From NCBI RefSeq assembly GCF_022761035.1, contig NZ_JAKWJP010000002.1, positions 372,001-436,000 on the forward strand: a stretch of DNA of 64,000 nucleotides. Reading direction: 5' to 3'. The notes under the pieces are model-generated. The model was not told the DNA's origin. It searched no databases and was given only the letters and a program-made list of their open reading frames with translations. Positions 36,616 to 46,668 of the stretch are shown piece by piece. Numbering within the stretch: position 1 is the first letter of the stretch; each line of letters opens with the position of its first letter. The translations under genes and the position numbers were made by a program. The stretch comes from Microbacterium sp. SS28 (GTDB lineage: Bacteria > Actinomycetota > Actinomycetes > Actinomycetales > Microbacteriaceae).

Positions 36616-38495
<1,880 letters not shown>

Positions 38496-38501
38496 GGAGT
38501 C

Positions 38502-38507
38502 AGGGTA
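38502..38507 (-). promoter_or_regulatory. -10 box of the leuL-leuA transcript
   Basis: Minus-strand TGTACCCT gives an extended -10 (TACCCT), six bases before the leader ATG. A weak -35 (TTCGCG) lies 18 bases further upstream. Confidence 0.45.
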
Positions 38508-38650
38508 CACCCGCGCGATGGGCGTCGCGAAATGACGAGACACGCGCGGCCGCGCGTGCCATGATGTGCCCAGGCTCGTCGTGCCGGGCCTGTGGCGCCC
38601 GTTCGGGGGAATGCGCGCCGCGTCGACGCAGACGCCGCCGGGGGGCAGCC

Positions 38651-40174
38651 ATGGTGTACCGCCGTTCGTCCGATCGTTCCCGCCGCTTCCCGGTCGCCCT
38701 TGCCGTGGGCGCCGCAGCGGCCCTCCTGCTCTCCGGATGCGGAGCAGCAGGCGAAGAGCCCGAGAGCGGGCCTGATCCCGCCGGCTTCGACGACCTTCAG
38801 TCGGCGACCGTCTACATCAAGGGGCAGGGCACCTTCATCGACCCCGGCTCGCTCGATCCCGCCGAGGGCCGCTGGATCGGCTCGGGCTTCGTCGTGAGCG
38901 ACGAAGGACGCGTCATCACGAACAACCACGTCGTGACGGGAGCCGGCACCCTCGACGTGCTGCTCGGGGGCGAGGACGAAGTGGGCGCCGAAGTGCTCGG
39001 CGCCTCGGAATGCCTCGACCTCGCCGTCTTGCAGCTCGACGAGGGCGAGTACCCGTTCCTCGCGTGGCACGACGGCGAGATCAAGACGGGCCTCGACGTC
39101 TACTCGGCGGGCTACCCGCTCGGCGCGGCGGAGGAGTTCACCCTGACGCGGGGCATCGTGTCCAAGGACGACTTCCCGCTCGACACGCAGTGGGCCTCAC
39201 TCGAGCACGTCATCGAGCACGACGCGCGCATCCGCGGCGGCAACTCGGGCGGACCGCTCGTCGACGAGAACGGCGCCGTCGTCGGCGTCAACTATGCGGG
39301 AGACGACTCGCTCGACTACAACTTCGCGATCCACCGGGATGTCGCAGAAGAGAACATCGACGCCATCGCGTCGGGCGAGCGGGTGCTCTCGATCGGCATC
39401 AACGCGCAGGGCTGGTCGAACGAGGACGACTCGCTGTTCGGCATCTGGGTGCAGTCGGTCGAAGCCGGAGGGCCGGCGGATGCCGCGGGCATAGAGCCCG
39501 GAGACCTCATCTTCTCGCTCGCCGGCGTCACGGTCGGCGACGACGGAACGCTGGGCACGTACTGCGAGGTGCTCGACACGCAGGGCAGCGACGCGACGAT
39601 CGACATCGAGGTCTACCGCCCCGGGACCGACGAGCTGCTCGAAGGCCAGATCAACGGCGATGAGCTCGCCGTGAAGCAGTCCGGCTACCTCGGAGGGTCG
39701 GTTCCCGACGACGGCGGCTTCCAGAGCGTGACGGATGACGCGGGCGTGCTGAGCGTCTCGGTGCCGGCCGATTGGGCCGAGGTGGACGGAGCCGGCTTCA
39801 CCGACGGGTCGGGCACGTCGTGGTACGCGCTCTCGGCCGCCCCCGTGCTCGAGTCGTTCTGGGGGACCTTCACGGGCTCCGGCGTGCAGTTCATGGGATC
39901 GACCGAAGCGGGCCAGTCCGCGGCGGATCTGCTCACCTCCCTCTCGGGCACCTACGACTCGGAGTGCAGTCCGGTCGAGACGGCCGAGTCGTACGACGAC
40001 GGCTATTACACCGGCGTCTACTCCGAGTGGGACTGCTCGGGAACCTCGGGAATCGTGCTGTCGGCGATCGACGCGGGCGGCAACAACGTCGTGCTGCTGC
40101 TTCAGCTCAACTCCGACTACGAGAAGACGGATGCGCTGACCGAGATCATCTCGACCTTCTACGCGGACTTCTGA
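38651..40174 (+). CDS. Lipid-anchored trypsin-like (S1C/HtrA-type) serine protease with PDZ domain
   Basis: 507 residues from ATG 38651; a longer frame from 38561 would bury the signal. The lipoprotein signal ends in LLLSGC with Cys30. The protease triad is His93 (TNNHVVTG), Asp123 (ECLDLAVLQL) and Ser199 (RGGNSGGPLV). A PDZ-like domain follows (about 280-345; GIWVQSVEAGGPADAAGIEPGD), then a beta-rich C-terminal domain (about 375-507) with no recognised name. It should act on the outer face of the membrane, degrading or cutting proteins in the envelope, like HtrA. It stands divergently from leuA and 46 bases before another lipoprotein gene. Confidence 0.88.
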   Translation: MVYRRSSDRSRRFPVALAVGAAAALLLSGCGAAGEEPESGPDPAGFDDLQSATVYIKGQGTFIDPGSLDPAEGRWIGSGFVVSDEGRVITNNHVVTGAGTLDVLLGGEDEVGAEVLGASECLDLAVLQLDEGEYPFLAWHDGEIKTGLDVYSAGYPLGAAEEFTLTRGIVSKDDFPLDTQWASLEHVIEHDARIRGGNSGGPLVDENGAVVGVNYAGDDSLDYNFAIHRDVAEENIDAIASGERVLSIGINAQGWSNEDDSLFGIWVQSVEAGGPADAAGIEPGDLIFSLAGVTVGDDGTLGTYCEVLDTQGSDATIDIEVYRPGTDELLEGQINGDELAVKQSGYLGGSVPDDGGFQSVTDDAGVLSVSVPADWAEVDGAGFTDGSGTSWYALSAAPVLESFWGTFTGSGVQFMGSTEAGQSAADLLTSLSGTYDSECSPVETAESYDDGYYTGVYSEWDCSGTSGIVLSAIDAGGNNVVLLLQLNSDYEKTDALTEIISTFYADF

Positions 40175-40220
40175 TCCGAGCCGGGTGAGACGAACGCGGG
40201 CGGCGAGACACCTGAAGGGT

Positions 40221-40835
40221 ATGAACCGAGTTCGTCGCGCATTCGCCGCGGCCGCGGGAGCGGCATCCGTCCTCGTCCTCGCCGGGTGCGCGACTGCGTC
40301 CGGCACGGGCGGCGTGCCGTTGGGCGACGCCTACCCCGCCGCGCCGTCGGGCGAGGTCGTCGGGCAGGGCACCGTCATGGATGTCGGCGGCGAGGCCGAG
40401 CTGTGCCTCGGGCCGGTCGCGGAGTCGTATCCGCCGCAGTGCTCGGGCATCCCGCTCGAGGGCTGGTCGTGGGACGGCGTCGAGGGCAGCGAGACCTCGG
40501 ACGACGTGCAGTGGGGCGCCTACGCCGTGCAGGGCACGTACGACGGTGAGGTGTTCGCCGTGACGGCTCCCCCGATCATGCTCGCGCTCTACGACCCGAT
40601 GCCCTTCCCCGACCCCACGGGCGGCGAAGCAGGCGAGGGCGACGAGGCGACGCTCGTCGCTCTGCAGGACGAGCTGCCCGATCGGCTGGGCACGCAGTAC
40701 CTGTCGTCGTCGATCGAGAACGGCTACCTGTGGATCGACGTCGTCTGGGACGACGGCACGCTTCAGGATGCCGCCGATGCCGAGTTCGGTGAGGACGCCG
40801 TCGTGGTCCGCTCGGCCCTGCGCGAGGTCTCGTAG
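40221..40835 (+). CDS. Predicted lipoprotein of unknown function
   Basis: 204 residues from ATG 40221, with GAAGGGT upstream. The signal peptide ends in VLVLAGC with Cys23 as the lipid site. The mature part has two Cys (LCLGPVAESYPPQC) that may form a disulfide, and many acidic residues. It lies 46 bases after the serine protease gene, so the two may be one operon and meet on the cell surface. I recognise no domain. Confidence 0.78.
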   Translation: MNRVRRAFAAAAGAASVLVLAGCATASGTGGVPLGDAYPAAPSGEVVGQGTVMDVGGEAELCLGPVAESYPPQCSGIPLEGWSWDGVEGSETSDDVQWGAYAVQGTYDGEVFAVTAPPIMLALYDPMPFPDPTGGEAGEGDEATLVALQDELPDRLGTQYLSSSIENGYLWIDVVWDDGTLQDAADAEFGEDAVVVRSALREVS

Positions 40836-40922
40836 CGCGTCTGGTGCACGGTGCTCACGCGGGTCTAGTGTGAGCGACGGGCGCCCTCTCCGGCGCCGAC
40901 CGGGACGCATTGCGGGGCGACG

Positions 40923-43184
40923 ATGAGTGCCAGCGAAGAGCGCGCGTTCGAGGCGGTCGTCCTCGCGAACTCCTTCACGCAGCCGAGAGGCCGCGCCTAC
41001 GTCGTGGAGTTCTTCCCCGCGTCGGTCGTCGCGCTGTACGACGCCGTCGTGGCGCGGCCGGACTGGCAGAACGCGCAGACGCTGACCGAGCGCGCGCTCG
41101 CCGTGGCCGCCGCGCTGGATGAGGACTCCGAGCTCGACGCGCGGTACCGCGCCGACGTCGAGGCGGGACGGCTGGGCTTCGGCGCGGGCGAGGACGAGGA
41201 GATCGACCGGGCCATCGGCGAAGTGTCCGAGGCGCTCGGGGGACGCGTCCTGCACGCGGGCCCGCCCGAGGAGGCGATGGAGGCCGAGGCTCCGGCGGAG
41301 GCCGGTGTCGAGTCGCCGGCGGCGGAGATGCCCGACTACGCAGCGGAGGCCGAGCCGCCGATGGCGGAGATGCCGGAGGCACCCGCGGAGGCCGGGATGG
41401 TCGATGAGGCCGTCGAGGCGGGGCCGCCGGATGACGGACTCCTCGGCGGCGGGGCGACCGAGGAGTGGTCGCCGGAGACGCCGAGCATGGTGCCGCCTGC
41501 CGCGGACGAGTCGACGATGGAGCCGCCCCTCATCGCAGGGGGCGATGGTGCTCCGGGCGGCGCGACCGCGAACGGCGGAGGCGGCTCGGGGGGCGGGGGC
41601 TCAGGTGGCGAACCCGCGGCCGAGACAGTCCAGACCTGGCTCAACGCCGAGGTGCAGGGCGACGACGACGTGCTGAGCGTCGCGACGGAATACGTGCTCG
41701 CCGTGTTCTTCGGTGAGAAGAGCGAGGCGGCCGCCGGCGCAGCGCCGACCGCGATCGCGTTCGCCACCGGGCAGAGCGCCGTCGATGTCACTGTGCAGCT
41801 CGTGAGCACGGACTTCACGGTTCCGCCGTTCCCGCAGCAGCTGCGCGTCGGACGCGACGGCGCGTCCAAGGGCCGTGCGCTCTTCCCCGTGACACCGCTG
41901 CACGGCGGGGCGTCGACCCTGAGCATCCTCGTGGACGTGCAGGGCAACTTCCTGCAGCGACTCGAGCTCTCATTCGACGTCGGCTCGTCCGCCGGCGTCG
42001 AGACCAAGAGCTTCGGCAGGCCGGCGGGCGCCGCCGTCGCCATGGAGCCGCGCACCGCGTCGATGCAGTTCATGCCGGCGACAGGCGGATACGAGCTCTT
42101 CGTCAAAGGCGTCACTGATCAGCAAGTGTTCGTGCAGCTCACGCAGGACGAGCTCGCGGCCCGCATCGGCGACGTCCGCGAGGCCCTGCTGAAGACCGTC
42201 AAGGATCCGACGTTCGCGCTCGAACTCGACATCCCGCCCGACCTCGGGGCCGCGGCGCTCAAGGAGCTCGCCTTCGCGGGCTTCCGGCTCTACCAGGCGA
42301 TCTTCGCGGGGCCGTTCGCCTCGGAGGAGCTCAAGCGCGTCGGCCGTTGGCTGCGCGAGAGTCTGGCAGACGACGTTGCGACGCTGCAGGTCGTCTCGCG
42401 CGGGTTCCCCGTGCCGTGGGCGCTCATGTACCTCACGGACCGCTTCTCGAACACGGCACTCGACTGGCACGACTTCATCGGCATGCGCCACGTGGTCGAG
42501 CAGATCCCGATGCGCGAGATCTCGGCGATGCCGCCCGTCACGACGATCGCATCGACGCCCGACTTGAGCGTGCGGGTGCTCTTCAACGACGGCATCGACG
42601 CGCAGATGCCCTCGCATCCCGTTGCGGCGCAGCGCGCGTACTGGAACGCGCGCGGTGTTGCTCTCGGCGTCGGCACCAAGGTCGACGACCTCGTGACGGG
42701 CGCCCTCGCGACGGGGGCGACCGACAAGGTGCTCTACCTCTACTGTCACGCCGTCGCCTCGGACAAGGACTCGGATGACTCGTACCTCGTCCTCTCGGGC
42801 GACGAGCGGATCTCGCTCGGCCAGCTGGCGGTGTACGCCCCCATCGAGGACCAGCTGCCGGCGCATCCGCTCATCGTCGTGAACGCGTGCGAGTCGGGCG
42901 ATCTGTCGCCCAACTTCTACGACGGCTTCGTGCCGTACTTCCTCGCGAAGGGCGCGCGCGGAGTCGTGGGCACCGAGTGCAAGACGCCGGGCCGCTTCGC
43001 GAGCGAATGGGCCATCGCGTTCTTCGACCGGTTCTTCAGCGGCGAGCCGCTCGGCGCCGCCGTCCTCGGAATCCGCCGGGAGTTCCTCGAGAAGCACGGC
43101 AATCCGCTCGGGCTGCTCTACGGCGTGCACTGCGACACCGACACGCGCGTGGATCCCGCGCTCGCGGCATCCGTCAGTCCCTAG
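40923..43184 (+). CDS. CHAT-domain (caspase-like) peptidase with N-terminal helical and low-complexity regions
   Basis: 753 residues. The C-terminal third is a clan-CD CHAT peptidase: the catalytic His609 lies in VLYLYCHAVAS and Cys656 in IVVNACESGD, followed by GARGVVGTECKTP. Residues 1-100 are mostly helical, resembling the small adaptor-like domains often placed before such effectors. Residues 105-230 are low-complexity (Glu, Pro, Ala) with a Gly4Ser-like linker at 216-229. Residues 235-370 look beta-rich. No signal or membrane helix: cytoplasmic. CHAT proteases occur in bacterial defence and cell-death modules and often cut a neighbouring protein. The next gene, an alpha/beta hydrolase, shares a DDGLLGGG motif with it (168-177 here), so I infer the two act together; substrate and trigger are unknown. 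Confidence 0.85.
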   Translation: MSASEERAFEAVVLANSFTQPRGRAYVVEFFPASVVALYDAVVARPDWQNAQTLTERALAVAAALDEDSELDARYRADVEAGRLGFGAGEDEEIDRAIGEVSEALGGRVLHAGPPEEAMEAEAPAEAGVESPAAEMPDYAAEAEPPMAEMPEAPAEAGMVDEAVEAGPPDDGLLGGGATEEWSPETPSMVPPAADESTMEPPLIAGGDGAPGGATANGGGGSGGGGSGGEPAAETVQTWLNAEVQGDDDVLSVATEYVLAVFFGEKSEAAAGAAPTAIAFATGQSAVDVTVQLVSTDFTVPPFPQQLRVGRDGASKGRALFPVTPLHGGASTLSILVDVQGNFLQRLELSFDVGSSAGVETKSFGRPAGAAVAMEPRTASMQFMPATGGYELFVKGVTDQQVFVQLTQDELAARIGDVREALLKTVKDPTFALELDIPPDLGAAALKELAFAGFRLYQAIFAGPFASEELKRVGRWLRESLADDVATLQVVSRGFPVPWALMYLTDRFSNTALDWHDFIGMRHVVEQIPMREISAMPPVTTIASTPDLSVRVLFNDGIDAQMPSHPVAAQRAYWNARGVALGVGTKVDDLVTGALATGATDKVLYLYCHAVASDKDSDDSYLVLSGDERISLGQLAVYAPIEDQLPAHPLIVVNACESGDLSPNFYDGFVPYFLAKGARGVVGTECKTPGRFASEWAIAFFDRFFSGEPLGAAVLGIRREFLEKHGNPLGLLYGVHCDTDTRVDPALAASVSP

Positions 43185-43211
43185 AAAGCGTTCACGAGAA
43201 ACGGAGCGTTC

Positions 43212-44552
43212 ATGTCTCTTCGGCGCATACCCGGTCGTTCGCAGTCGTATCACCTCATCAGCTACGACCGGAAGGGTCGCGAGCAGCGCGACGAGGACGG
43301 CGGAGTCGCGAGCGAAGCGGCGCTCGCCGCGATCGCCGCTCCGGGAGTGACCGACGTCTTCGTGCTGAGCCACGGGTGGCAAGGCGACCATGCCGACGCC
43401 ATCTCGCAGTACGACCACTGGATCGGCGCGGCCGATCCCGATGCAGACGCCGACGGCGTCAGTCCCGTCGTCATCGGTCTGCACTGGCCGAGCAAGGCCT
43501 GGAGCGATCGGGAGCTGAAGGATGCTCCATCCGGCCTGCTCGGAGACGAGCCGACCGGCGACGGCGTCACGGTCGACGAGGCCGTCGAGGAGTTCGCGGC
43601 GCAGCTCGGAGACGACCCCGCGACGAGGGAGGCTCTGCGGGAGGTGCTCGCGTATGCGGCATCCGTCCCCGTCGACCAGGAGGCCTCCGACGCGGATGAG
43701 CTGCCTGCGGGGGTTGCCGAGGCCTACCGCACACTCGTCGCCCGGCTCGGCGCGTCGGCAGACGACGGGGGCCTGCTCGGCGGCGGCTGGGATCCCGATG
43801 CCGTGTTCGCCGAGTCGCTCACGACGGAGGCGGATGACGGATTGCTCGGCGACGGATGGTTCAGCCGGCTGCGGGAGGCCGTGCTCACTCCCCTGCGCCA
43901 GCTGACGTTCTGGAACAGCAAGAACCACGCACGCGAGTTCGGCGAGGGCGCTGCCGCGGATCTCGTCCGCAAGATCATTCGGACGGCGGACGTGCGCGTT
44001 CACCTCATGGGCCACAGCTTCGGCACGATCGTCGTCTCGAGTGCCGTGCGGGGCGCGAACGGAAGCCCGAAGCCTCCGGCGAGACCCGTCTCGTCGCTCT
44101 TCCTCGTGCAAGGGGCAGTATCGCTGTGGGCGTTCGCCGAGGAGGTGCCCGAGAAGTTCGGCGGCGGCCGTGGCTACCTCGCCGACGTCGTGCGACCGGA
44201 GTTCGTGTCGGGGCCGATCGTCGTCACACGCTCCAAGTGGGACTACGCCGTCGGCAAGTTCTATCCCCTCGCGGTGCGCCTCGCGGGCCAGTATCTGCTG
44301 GGCGACGACGAGGCGCCGAAGTACGGCGGCATCGGATCGTTCGGAGCACACGGCGTCGCGGGATCGGTCGAGCTTCCTGCGCTGGCTGCCGGCGCGCGGC
44401 AGGACCCCGGGCTCGAGGCCGGGACCCTGTACAACATCGACGCGAGCAAGGTCATCGCGAAGCTCGACGGCGCCTCGGGCGCGCACAGCGACATCGGGCA
44501 CGCCGAGCTCTCGTGGCTCGCGTGGAACGCGGCGCGCGCGTCGGCTCGCTGA
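43212..44552 (+). CDS. Alpha/beta hydrolase, likely partner of the CHAT peptidase
   Basis: 446 residues from ATG 43212, with a GGAG site. The nucleophile elbow is MGHSFGTIV (Ser269), the oxyanion region is VFVLSHGWQGDH (residues 49-60), and His425 or His430 near the C terminus may complete the triad. The segment 100-245 is an insertion over the core fold. It contains SGLLGDE (107-113), ADDGGLLGGG (183-192) and ADDGLLGDG (207-215), close to the motif in the CHAT protein. No signal peptide. Family membership is clear; esterase, lipase or other activity is not. A lid-like insertion with cleavable sites would allow activation by the protease, which is a hypothesis. Confidence 0.82.
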   Translation: MSLRRIPGRSQSYHLISYDRKGREQRDEDGGVASEAALAAIAAPGVTDVFVLSHGWQGDHADAISQYDHWIGAADPDADADGVSPVVIGLHWPSKAWSDRELKDAPSGLLGDEPTGDGVTVDEAVEEFAAQLGDDPATREALREVLAYAASVPVDQEASDADELPAGVAEAYRTLVARLGASADDGGLLGGGWDPDAVFAESLTTEADDGLLGDGWFSRLREAVLTPLRQLTFWNSKNHAREFGEGAAADLVRKIIRTADVRVHLMGHSFGTIVVSSAVRGANGSPKPPARPVSSLFLVQGAVSLWAFAEEVPEKFGGGRGYLADVVRPEFVSGPIVVTRSKWDYAVGKFYPLAVRLAGQYLLGDDEAPKYGGIGSFGAHGVAGSVELPALAAGARQDPGLEAGTLYNIDASKVIAKLDGASGAHSDIGHAELSWLAWNAARASAR

Positions 44553-44960
44553 CCCTCCCTATCGAGCCTCGAACGGAGCGAGACGAAGCGCGAATGTGGC
44601 AGAGAAACCAATCCTCACCAGGCTAAAACCAGGCTCCAATGTCGGAACCCCAGGGCAGAATGGGGGCTATGAAGCACTCGATCGCCGCCCTCCGCGACAC
44701 GGTCGAGCAGCTTCGCGGGCTTGCCGCGGAGGCGGTCGGGGGTGGTGCGATGCGGGGCGCGTCCGACACCGACCTGGCGGACGCGACGGTGCTGATCGGG
44801 GAGCTCGGGGGACCTCATCGGCCGGCGGACATGAACAGATGACCGGGCTGCTGGGACTGTCCCGATGCAGATCCACGACGTCACCCGCGAACGCCTCACA
44901 GCCGACGCGTCTGCTGAAGTCTGAAGCCCCACGGGCGCGCCGCCTGGAAGACTGGCGAGC
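44553..44960. other. Intergenic region with a gene remnant
   Basis: 408 bases between the hydrolase and the deaminase/ASCH gene. They contain the short DUF222-like piece at 44669-44842; otherwise I find no gene, repeat or clear promoter. There is no terminator-like hairpin after the hydrolase stop. Confidence 0.5.
44669..44842 (+). pseudogene. N-terminal remnant of a DUF222 (13E12-type) HNH-endonuclease-like gene
   Basis: 57 codons start MKHSIAALRDTVEQLRGLAAE and include ASDTDLADATVLIGELGG, which resembles the N-terminal helices of DUF222/13E12 proteins, usually 400-500 residues with a C-terminal HNH domain. The frame ends at 44842 and nothing of the rest is present. It may also be a small unrelated orphan. 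Confidence 0.35.
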
Positions 44961-45665
44961 ATGGAACCACTCCCCTCGGAGCTGCGCGTGATCGAAGAGG
45001 CGGAGGCGCTCGCACGAACGCTCGGCGACGATCCGAACCATACAGTCGCGGCCGTCGCGTTGGACGCGTGGGGGCGGCTGCACCACGCCGTCAACGTCTT
45101 CCACTTCACCGGCGGTCCGTGTGCAGAACTCGTCGCACTCGGCGCTGCGGCAACGGCCGGGGCCGGGCCGCTCGTTGCCATCGCCGCCGCCGGTGACCGC
45201 GGACGGGGGCTGATCCCGCCCTGCGGCCGATGTCGACAGGTGATGCTCGACCATCACCCGGACTTTCTTGTGGCGGTTCCCACGGAGGACGGCCCGCGCA
45301 TGCGACCGATCACGAAGCTCCTGCCGGATGCCTACGTCTTTCCGGATGCCGATGCAGTTCGCCTTTTCCGGCTGAACAAGCGGTACCGCCACTCGGTCGA
45401 GAACGGAACCAAGACGTCATCGGTGCGGTGGGACGAGTCGTGGTCGACGGGCCGCGTCGTCATCTACTTCGAGGACGACGGCGGCGCTCCTCTGCCTGCG
45501 GAGATCACGGGCGTCCATCGATATCGACTCGATGAGCTCACCCCGGATCGGCTGCGAATCCGCGCGGACACGTCCGTCGACGAATACATCGCGGGCCTGC
45601 GCCGGCACTATCCCGCGATGCCGGAGGCCGCCTGGGTGGATGTCGTCGACTTCTCGATCGACTGA
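44961..45665 (+). CDS. Cytidine-deaminase-like domain fused to an ASCH domain
   Basis: 234 residues. Residues 1-110 hold the zinc deaminase signature: CAE (Cys54, Glu56) and PPCGRC (Cys88, Cys91), close to cytidine and blasticidin-S deaminases. Residues 133-234 look like an ASCH domain: RHSVENGTKTSSVRWDES carries the lysine-threonine pattern used by E. coli YqfB, an ASCH enzyme that removes acetyl from N4-acetylcytidine. I infer a two-step nucleoside salvage, ac4C to cytidine to uridine, or a deaminase with an ASCH RNA-binding module. It stands alone after the CHAT island. Confidence 0.75.
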   Translation: MEPLPSELRVIEEAEALARTLGDDPNHTVAAVALDAWGRLHHAVNVFHFTGGPCAELVALGAAATAGAGPLVAIAAAGDRGRGLIPPCGRCRQVMLDHHPDFLVAVPTEDGPRMRPITKLLPDAYVFPDADAVRLFRLNKRYRHSVENGTKTSSVRWDESWSTGRVVIYFEDDGGAPLPAEITGVHRYRLDELTPDRLRIRADTSVDEYIAGLRRHYPAMPEAAWVDVVDFSID

Positions 45666-45735
45666 CCTGCCGGGGCGAAACGCGCCGACGTGCGGTCGGA
45701 TCGCAAGGTGCTTCAGCGGCACCCTCGACCGCGGG

Positions 45736-46668
45736 TCAGAACCCGAGGCGGCCGAGCTGCTTCGGGTCGCGCTGCCATTCCTTCGCGACGCGGACGTGGA
45801 GCTTGAGGAACACCTTCGTGCCGACGAGCGGCTCGATCTGCGCGCGGGCGCGGGTGCCGACATCCCGAAGCCTCGAACCCTTGTGGCCGATGATGATGGC
45901 CTTCTGGCTGTCGCGCTCGACGACGATGTTCGCGTGGATGTCGGTCATGGAGCCGGTCTCGCGCTCGGCGATGTCTTCGATCGTGACGGCGATCGAGTGC
46001 GGGAGCTCGTCGCGCACGCCGTCGAGGGCGGCCTCACGGATGATCTCGGCGATGCGGTCCTCGGTCGACTCGTCGGTGACGACGCCGTCCGGGTACAGCT
46101 GAGGCCCCTTCGGCATGAGGGCGAGCAGCTCGTCCGTGAGCACGTCGAGCTGCTCGCGCGTGAGCGCCGAGAGCGGGATGACGGCGGCCCAGTCCTCGCG
46201 CAGGCTGTCGACCTCGAGCAGGCGCTCGGTGATCTGCTCGCGGGACGCGGCATCCGTCTTCGTGACGATCGCGACCTTCTTCGCGCGACCGTAGCCCGAC
46301 AGCGACTCGGCGATGCGGCGGTCTCCCGGTCCGACCTTCTCGGTCGCAGGCACGCAGAAGCCGATGACGTCGACGTCGCCGAGCACCTGCTCGACGAGAT
46401 GGTTCAGTCGCTCTCCGAGCAGCGTCCGGGGCTTGTGCAGACCCGGCGTGTCGACGATCACGAGCTGCCCTGCGGGGCGGTTCAGGATGCCGCGGATCGC
46501 GCGACGCGTCGTCTGCGGCTTGTCGCTCGTGATGGCCACCTTTTCGCCGACGAGGGCGTTGGTGAGGGTCGACTTGCCGACGTTCGGCCGCCCGACGAAT
46601 GTCACGAAGCCCGATCGCCCCTGAGCGACCTCCGCCGCCTCGGGGGCGGAACTCGATTCCTCAGCCAT
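45736..46668 (-). CDS. era: GTPase Era
   Basis: 310 residues. Era binds the 3' end of 16S rRNA and helps assemble the small ribosomal subunit. GTPase motifs are FVGRPNVGKSTL, VIVDTPGLHKP and VTKTDA. The KH domain near residue 230 has IIGHKGSRLRDVGTRARAQIE, with EPLVGTKVFLKLHVRV at the end. Final gene of the minus-strand cluster; it overlaps the hemolysin C-like gene by eight bases. Confidence 0.96.
   Translation of the reverse strand: MAEESSSAPEAAEVAQGRSGFVTFVGRPNVGKSTLTNALVGEKVAITSDKPQTTRRAIRGILNRPAGQLVIVDTPGLHKPRTLLGERLNHLVEQVLGDVDVIGFCVPATEKVGPGDRRIAESLSGYGRAKKVAIVTKTDAASREQITERLLEVDSLREDWAAVIPLSALTREQLDVLTDELLALMPKGPQLYPDGVVTDESTEDRIAEIIREAALDGVRDELPHSIAVTIEDIAERETGSMTDIHANIVVERDSQKAIIIGHKGSRLRDVGTRARAQIEPLVGTKVFLKLHVRVAKEWQRDPKQLGRLGF

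Follow-up and report, generated by a model that had tools for sequence, protein, structure and literature searches.

We describe a 234-residue protein of Microbacterium sp. SS28 in which a deaminase half resembling blasticidin S deaminase (BSD) is joined to a C-terminal ASCH half resembling YqfB, the N4-acetylcytidine (ac4C) amidohydrolase. Judged by its sequences, the fusion is a real family and its reading frame is not a product of chance, as both halves look constrained and 45 distinct fused relatives were found. We give about an even chance to the reading that the family is a horizontally spread, resistance-type detoxifier of cytosine-containing nucleoside antibiotics, whose substrates we infer. 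Sequence and predicted structure both point this way: the deaminase half lies closer to BSD than to cytidine deaminase (CDA), misses the CDA cut-offs and has the Glu of the NVEN motif replaced, and the distribution of the fusion is patchy and appears mobile. The disarming of an antibiotic is a more likely role than the recycling of a modified RNA building block, and drug resistance, offered as an alternative in the earlier note on this DNA, appears to fit the sequences better than the ac4C salvage proposed there.

Gene layout and predicted structure

The window, the whole stretch of DNA analyzed, is 64,000 nucleotides long, and its relevant features are collected in Table 1. The fusion gene opens with ATG, ends with a stop codon at 45663–45665 and has a G+C content of 67.4% (window, 70.0%). 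Promoter and terminator scans of 44500–45000 found none. The protein is the sole ASCH match of its own genome, scoring above the Pfam cut-off of 21.2 bits over residues 139–228, whereas the general deaminase model PF00383 reached 23.5 bits, narrowly below its cut-off of 25. Four of five fused relatives passed the latter (L006 29.1, L021 29.4, L032 34.3, L049 36.3) and L055 failed it (21.8). With a complete deaminase site and an ASCH domain above cut-off, the protein does combine a CAE...PCGRC site with an ASCH domain, as the earlier note had claimed.

Table 1. Features of the fusion gene and its surroundings, in window coordinates
Feature	Position	Strand	Basis
Flanking alpha/beta-hydrolase-like gene, outside the system	43212..44552	+	Weak DUF900, below cut-off
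Segment between hydrolase and era carrying the fusion	44553..45735	.	In L121, 6 bases separate the hydrolase and era alignments
57-aa remnant	44669..44842	+	First 47 aa 85% identical to the beginning of a DUF222-containing frame found elsewhere in the genome
ORF, BSD-like deaminase/ASCH fusion, 234 aa	44961..45665	+	ORF, Pfam, PDB sequence search, predicted structure
Deaminase half, residues 1–130, predicted BSD fold	44961..45350	+	Z 22.8, rmsd 1.5 (127–128 residues); E 1.3e-31
Cys54-Ala-Glu56, zinc ligand and catalytic Glu	45120..45128	+	Cys54 in 46/46, Glu56 in 45/46 fused proteins including the window protein
Cys88-Gly-Arg-Cys91, zinc ligands	45222..45233	+	Cys88 in 46/46; position 91 Cys in 39/46, Asp in 7/46
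ASCH half, residues 133–234, YqfB-like	45357..45662	+	9kyf Z 12.5 (residues 133–234); PF04266 29.5 bits
Lys151, Ser154, Arg156, aligned with YqfB Lys21, Thr24, Arg26	45411..45428	+	Lys in 46/46, Thr in 43 and Ser in 3, Arg in 46/46
Arg201 codon, aligned with YqfB catalytic Glu74	45561..45563	+	Acid in 29/46 fused proteins
Flanking era-like GTPase, outside the system	45736..46668	-	MMR_HSR1 and KH_2

The predicted structure (AlphaFold2, built on an alignment of 41 fused proteins) had a mean pLDDT of 93.0 and a pTM of 0.88. Searched against the PDB by sequence, the N-terminal half matched BSD (1wn5, E = 1.3e-31; 3oj6, E = 5.1e-29) far ahead of the best CDA in the same search (E = 1.3e-11), and in model comparison residues 1–128 superposed on BSD with Z 22.8 and rmsd 1.5 over 127–128 residues, against Z of at most 16.4 for CDAs. 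The deaminase half is thus nearer to BSD than to CDA by sequence and predicted fold, and the closeness to BSD noted earlier holds. Identity to the BSDs of Aspergillus terreus (1wn5/1wn6) and Coccidioides immitis (3oj6) is 41–48% over the domain, and the zinc ligands, the catalytic Glu and the HFxGGPCAE signature are common to all; the solved enzymes, however, have 130–158 residues and no ASCH half. Tetrameric CDA shares the deaminase superfamily fold and the CAE...PCxxC arrangement, but the fusion fell below the cut-offs of every CDA equivalog model that it matched (48.6 and 40.8 bits, against NCBIfam cut-offs of 74 and 113.65). A separate CDA of the same genome passed both (180.2 and 117.6 bits).

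The C-terminal half superposed best on YqfB crystal structures (9kyf, Z 12.5, rmsd 2.3, 96 residues; 9kyh, Z 12.4, rmsd 2.2, 98 residues), followed by 1t62, 2z0t and 3s9x at Z 9.8, 9.5 and 8.9. The window ASCH half alone matched no chain in a PDB sequence search; a profile of the fused family recovered YqfB (E = 3.8e-8, profile positions 133–221). The description of this half as a YqfB-like ASCH domain is therefore upheld, as is the ASCH fold itself in the predicted structure. YqfB (1te7, 9kyf, 9kyh) shares 21% identity with it and is, in contrast, a standalone enzyme.

The gene lies in a 1.2 kb segment between the hydrolase gene (ending at 44552) and the GTPase gene (ending at 45736), which we take to be era from its pair of MMR_HSR1 and KH_2; in the era–leuA stretch fetched from 12 congeners, the fusion was present at this place in none. 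The era–leuA interval (window 38422–45735) is variable in the genus, ranging from ~0.1 to 8.3 kb with contents that differ among the 12 relatives. Positions 38561–44552 of the window are occupied by consecutive genes for a trypsin-PDZ protein, a 216-aa product that Pfam leaves unmatched, a CHAT-domain protein and the alpha/beta-hydrolase-like protein; the CHAT and hydrolase pair was found again in two congeners (L121, L122).

Distribution, evolution and mobility of the family

Whole-genome searches covered the phylum of the host in samples of 396–398 genomes. Within the same family, 11 of 398 genomes carried the full-length fusion, and a twelfth (G295) matched over residues 71–201 only. In the genus, one genome of nine (G000) has the full-length fusion, the other eight giving E values of 3.5e-12 or higher, such as an ordinary CDA would give. 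In the order, 40/396 genomes matched at E ≤ 1e-30, 31 of them across both halves (start at profile position ≤44 and end ≥232, as read from the table), and in the phylum 8/396 matched at E ≤ 1e-22, two at full length. Twenty plasmid records matched, six over at least 80% of the query, and carriers by name are Brevibacterium, a Propionibacteriaceae bacterium, Streptomyces, Curtobacterium and Rhodococcus. The search outside the phylum consisted of one single-sequence scan of genome contigs (three loci) together with plasmid, phage and viral collections, so an ‘actinobacterial’ limit is not proven. The phage records searched with the fusion gave no match, and none of 11 viral-contig stretches that fitted a pattern was confirmed, so that a viral or phage origin was set aside. 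In a partial literature coverage, outside which most subscription journals fall, no title or abstract opening described a deaminase/ASCH fusion.

For residue counts, 49 fused rows were extracted and reduced to 46 (the window protein and 45 relatives) by dropping two query copies and one protein identical to L032; L071, which starts late, was classed as partial and excluded, as were fused matches whose locus had not been fetched. In the deaminase tree (127 columns, many open forks), fused and standalone forms interleave, and several lineages have the deaminase without ASCH. The fused state requires nine changes, at least four of them forced by well-supported branches. We take the interleaving to mean that the ASCH half was probably lost or exchanged repeatedly, with no direction implied. 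A tblastn search for ASCH remnants in the short flanks behind standalone deaminases gave clear matches only for L071 and L078, both of which already have an ASCH half. In three genomes of genus g35 (G356, G329, G259; L138–L140 with L014, L012, L018), the two halves are encoded far apart, one gene specifying a BSD-like deaminase on its own and another an ASCH protein, likewise standalone, of the form without acid described below. Across 13 pairs of fused genes, dN/dS was 0.06–0.20 for the deaminase half and 0.06–0.33 for the ASCH half, values that are rough since many dS exceed 1; in 10 of the 13 the ASCH half had the higher value. Constraint seems to act on both halves and to be weaker on the ASCH half.

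The settings of the fused genes are diverse. Five of the six full-length plasmid copies were examined: one is bracketed by IS3 and IS5 transposase genes, another is two genes away from an IS630 transposase gene, and the remaining three have no annotated transposase gene within 8 kb, of which one adjoins a MarR gene, one stands downstream of a MerR gene and one has neither. In a further plasmid record, IS256 separates individual deaminase and ASCH genes. The six plasmid genes (Streptomyces, Curtobacterium, Rhodococcus) are homologous over at least 80% of the fusion, but are annotated ‘ASCH domain-containing protein’, a label that names the ASCH half only and assigns no function. Among 20 proteins picked by eye from chromosomal neighborhoods, Pfam identified two PemK/MazF proteins, a Schlafen AlbA protein, a second ASCH protein, an MFS transporter, NUDIX, IstB and ordinary metabolic and regulatory genes, with four unmatched. 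This second ASCH protein stands directly upstream of a fused gene, in L083:5794-7709, together with a protein of 509 aa that Pfam leaves unmatched and that by eye may resemble the PIN-GNAT-EVE type. A search for operon partners in 27 loci and the window relied on a rough gene caller that recovered the fusion in 26 of 28 (L087 and L096 were missed). Across the 26 loci it found no recurring partner gene, save among five that share one chromosomal place (L032, L094, L095, L097, L098); every gene family other than the fusion that was present in at least three loci came from these five, and a conserved operon partner was rejected. No neighboring gene points to a particular antibiotic, and PADLOC matched none of the fusion, CHAT and hydrolase proteins, which speaks against a defence system. 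Taken together, distribution and settings look like those of mobile cargo, not of housekeeping salvage.

Active-site residues and an ASCH subgroup without the acid

The deaminase site is nearly invariant (Table 1). The single exception at Glu56 is a fused protein with Lys in its place (L055:1492-2193), whose deaminase half is probably dead and whose ASCH core and acid are intact. Seven fused proteins (L037, L059, L067, L070, L072, L075, L076) carry Asp for the third zinc-ligand Cys of PCGRC, giving CGRD, a variant also seen by eye in 10 standalone BSD-like proteins (L020, L022–L030); most CGRD proteins fall in one clade and possibly have an Asp-ligated zinc site. In CDA, the Glu of the NVEN motif contacts the ribose. 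This position is Phe47 in the window protein and Glu in the CDA of the same genome; none of the 46 fused proteins has Glu there, and one has Asp.

In the ASCH half, Lys151, Ser154 and Arg156 are joined by Tyr217, which aligns with YqfB Tyr89, whereas YqfB Asp27, His70 and Glu74 are replaced by Trp157, Arg197 and Arg201. The alignment to the catalytic set of YqfB, in which Thr24 is the nucleophile and Glu74 the general acid, thus leaves the window protein with a base, a hydroxyl (Ser for Thr) and an Arg, without the acid. The naming of Glu56 and Lys151 as catalytic positions in the earlier note agrees with this alignment and with the 46 fused proteins. YqfB Lys21Ala, Thr24Ala and Arg26Ala are inactive, and Glu74Ala lowers kcat on ac4C ~1000-fold, with a Km that is also lower and kcat/Km down ~70-fold (PMC6972931). 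Given this loss and the Arg at the Glu74 position, the window ASCH half may lack amidohydrolase activity. Across the family, the position is non-acidic in 17/46 proteins, including one without the loop (L033), as read from an alignment that is gappy around it; L006 is among the relatives that keep the acid.

The loss of the acid is not scattered. An ASCH tree was built from the 46 fused proteins, 13 standalone-frame ASCH sequences and YqfB, with L142 dropped for its broken frame. Among rows with Trp at the Asp27 position, 23/25 are without acid, compared with 5/35 of the rows without Trp; two changes suffice for Trp and six for the acid. In this tree, which rests on 104 columns and leaves many forks open, all Trp rows fall within a 29-member group (support 87), and as this group also contains standalone ASCH proteins, the Trp/no-acid form appears to be kept without a deaminase partner. 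By sequence, the no-acid form is a coherent subgroup marked by Trp157 and not random decay, under modest tree support. The invariant Lys, Ser/Thr and Arg core and the presence of the Trp/no-acid form in standalone ASCH proteins weaken the reading that the ASCH half is degenerate.

Candidate roles of the fusion

In the detoxification that we favor, the deaminase half would replace the C4 amino group of blasticidin S-like and related cytosine nucleosides, ending their action, and the ASCH half would act on this nitrogen as well. Most family members would use the ASCH half to cut N4-acyl groups of the amicetin type, leaving a base that the deaminase can accept; in the Trp157/no-acid subgroup of the window protein, the ASCH half may hydrolyze N4-acylcytosines more weakly or in an altered way, or may serve for binding. 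This unmasking or holding of an N4-acyl cytosine by the acid-less window protein is the weakest step of the proposal. In its most specific form, which we hold tentatively as a possibility, one mobile polypeptide would inactivate amicetin-class antibiotics irreversibly in two steps, removal of the N4 acyl arm by the ASCH half and deamination of the exposed cytosine by the BSD-like half, with blasticidin S also covered; it would be carried on actinobacterial plasmids, with the Trp/no-acid subgroup having a rearranged active site. We know of no resistance mechanism that couples an N4-acyl cut to deamination in this way.

Several published observations bear on this chemistry. BSD turns blasticidin S into a non-toxic deaminohydroxy form (PMC4664946). 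Amicetin bears a para-aminobenzoate arm that the authors of PMC12856912 reproduce on the blasticidin S C4 amine, and both antibiotics occupy a common cytosine site on the ribosome (PMC12856912). YqfB cuts para-substituted N4-benzoyl substrates, namely the N4-(4-acetyl-benzoyl) and N4-(4-benzoyl-benzoyl) deoxycytidines, but leaves ortho-substituted N4-benzoyl substrates and a sugar-acetylated ac4C uncut (PMC6972931). With N4-acyl cleavage by YqfB and a common pocket for amicetin and blasticidin S, both halves could work on one and the same atom in two antibiotics with a common target. Against this, YqfB-type enzymes are slow on acetyl-benzoyl substrates, much of which remains uncut after 24 h (PMC9599836); together with the uncut sugar-acetylated ac4C, this suggests that amicetin, being bulky, may be a poor fit. 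Nor is a separate acyl hydrolase strictly required, as cytidine deaminases are able to convert N4-acylcytidines without one (PMC9897663). Also against the detoxifier, several deaminase lineages lack ASCH, and the window ASCH half may be inactive with Arg at the Glu74 position.

The protein might instead be a plain BSD whose ASCH half, in the window subgroup, is a non-catalytic accessory to folding, oligomer formation or substrate capture, a reading that we consider possible but unlikely. The missing Glu74, His70 and Asp27, the interleaving of standalone deaminases in the tree and the higher dN/dS of the ASCH half in 10/13 pairs would all suit it; the Lys, Ser/Thr and Arg kept in 46/46 fused proteins would not, nor would the occurrence of the Trp/no-acid form as a standalone ASCH protein, conserved without a deaminase. 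In another reading, the PUA-like fold of the ASCH half would bind RNA in which the deaminase edits cytidine, as a toxin or defence effector. PUA and ASCH domains are often RNA-binding, and ASCH recurs in toxin–antitoxin and restriction settings (PMC7641849); some neighbors of the fusion are toxin- or defence-like genes. Yet PADLOC was negative, no partner gene recurs, the closest fold is that of BSD, an enzyme of a free nucleoside, and PMC9599836 reports no nucleic acid binding for four YqfB homologues, which makes RNA editing very improbable.

The earlier note had proposed that one polypeptide converts ac4C to uridine, salvaging the nucleoside from RNA decay. YqfB is indeed the best solved match of the C-terminal half, the two reactions would take place on one atom in sequence, and ac4C could come from the environment or from an unknown writer. 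However, PF05636 (TmcAL) and PF13718 (the acetyltransferase domain of TmcA/NAT10), taken as stand-ins for the known ac4C writers, were each found in 0/44 fusion-carrying genomes, with the positive controls B. subtilis and E. coli matched, respectively; two of the 44, G902 and G1040, were included on fusion matches beginning at profile positions 60 and 75. The genome of the window protein also has no TmcA_N (PF08351). That genome has a separate true CDA, so the fused deaminase should not be needed for the cytidine step, and the replaced NVEN Glu, the substitutions by Arg201, Arg197 and Trp157 at the YqfB Glu74, His70 and Asp27 positions and the patchy distribution, like that of mobile cargo, weaken the proposal further. 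Salvage of ac4C from RNA decay is thus poorly supported and largely set aside; we regard it as improbable.

Detoxification of cytosine antibiotics remains our preferred reading of the family. The six plasmid records name the protein by its ASCH half only, and a BSD relative has thereby been overlooked in actinobacteria of the environment. Successive action of the two halves on one C4 nitrogen would, if true, explain why a YqfB-like domain is retained on mobile DNA in genomes where the search found no known ac4C writer, and ASCH amidohydrolases would then gain a role beyond RNA catabolism.
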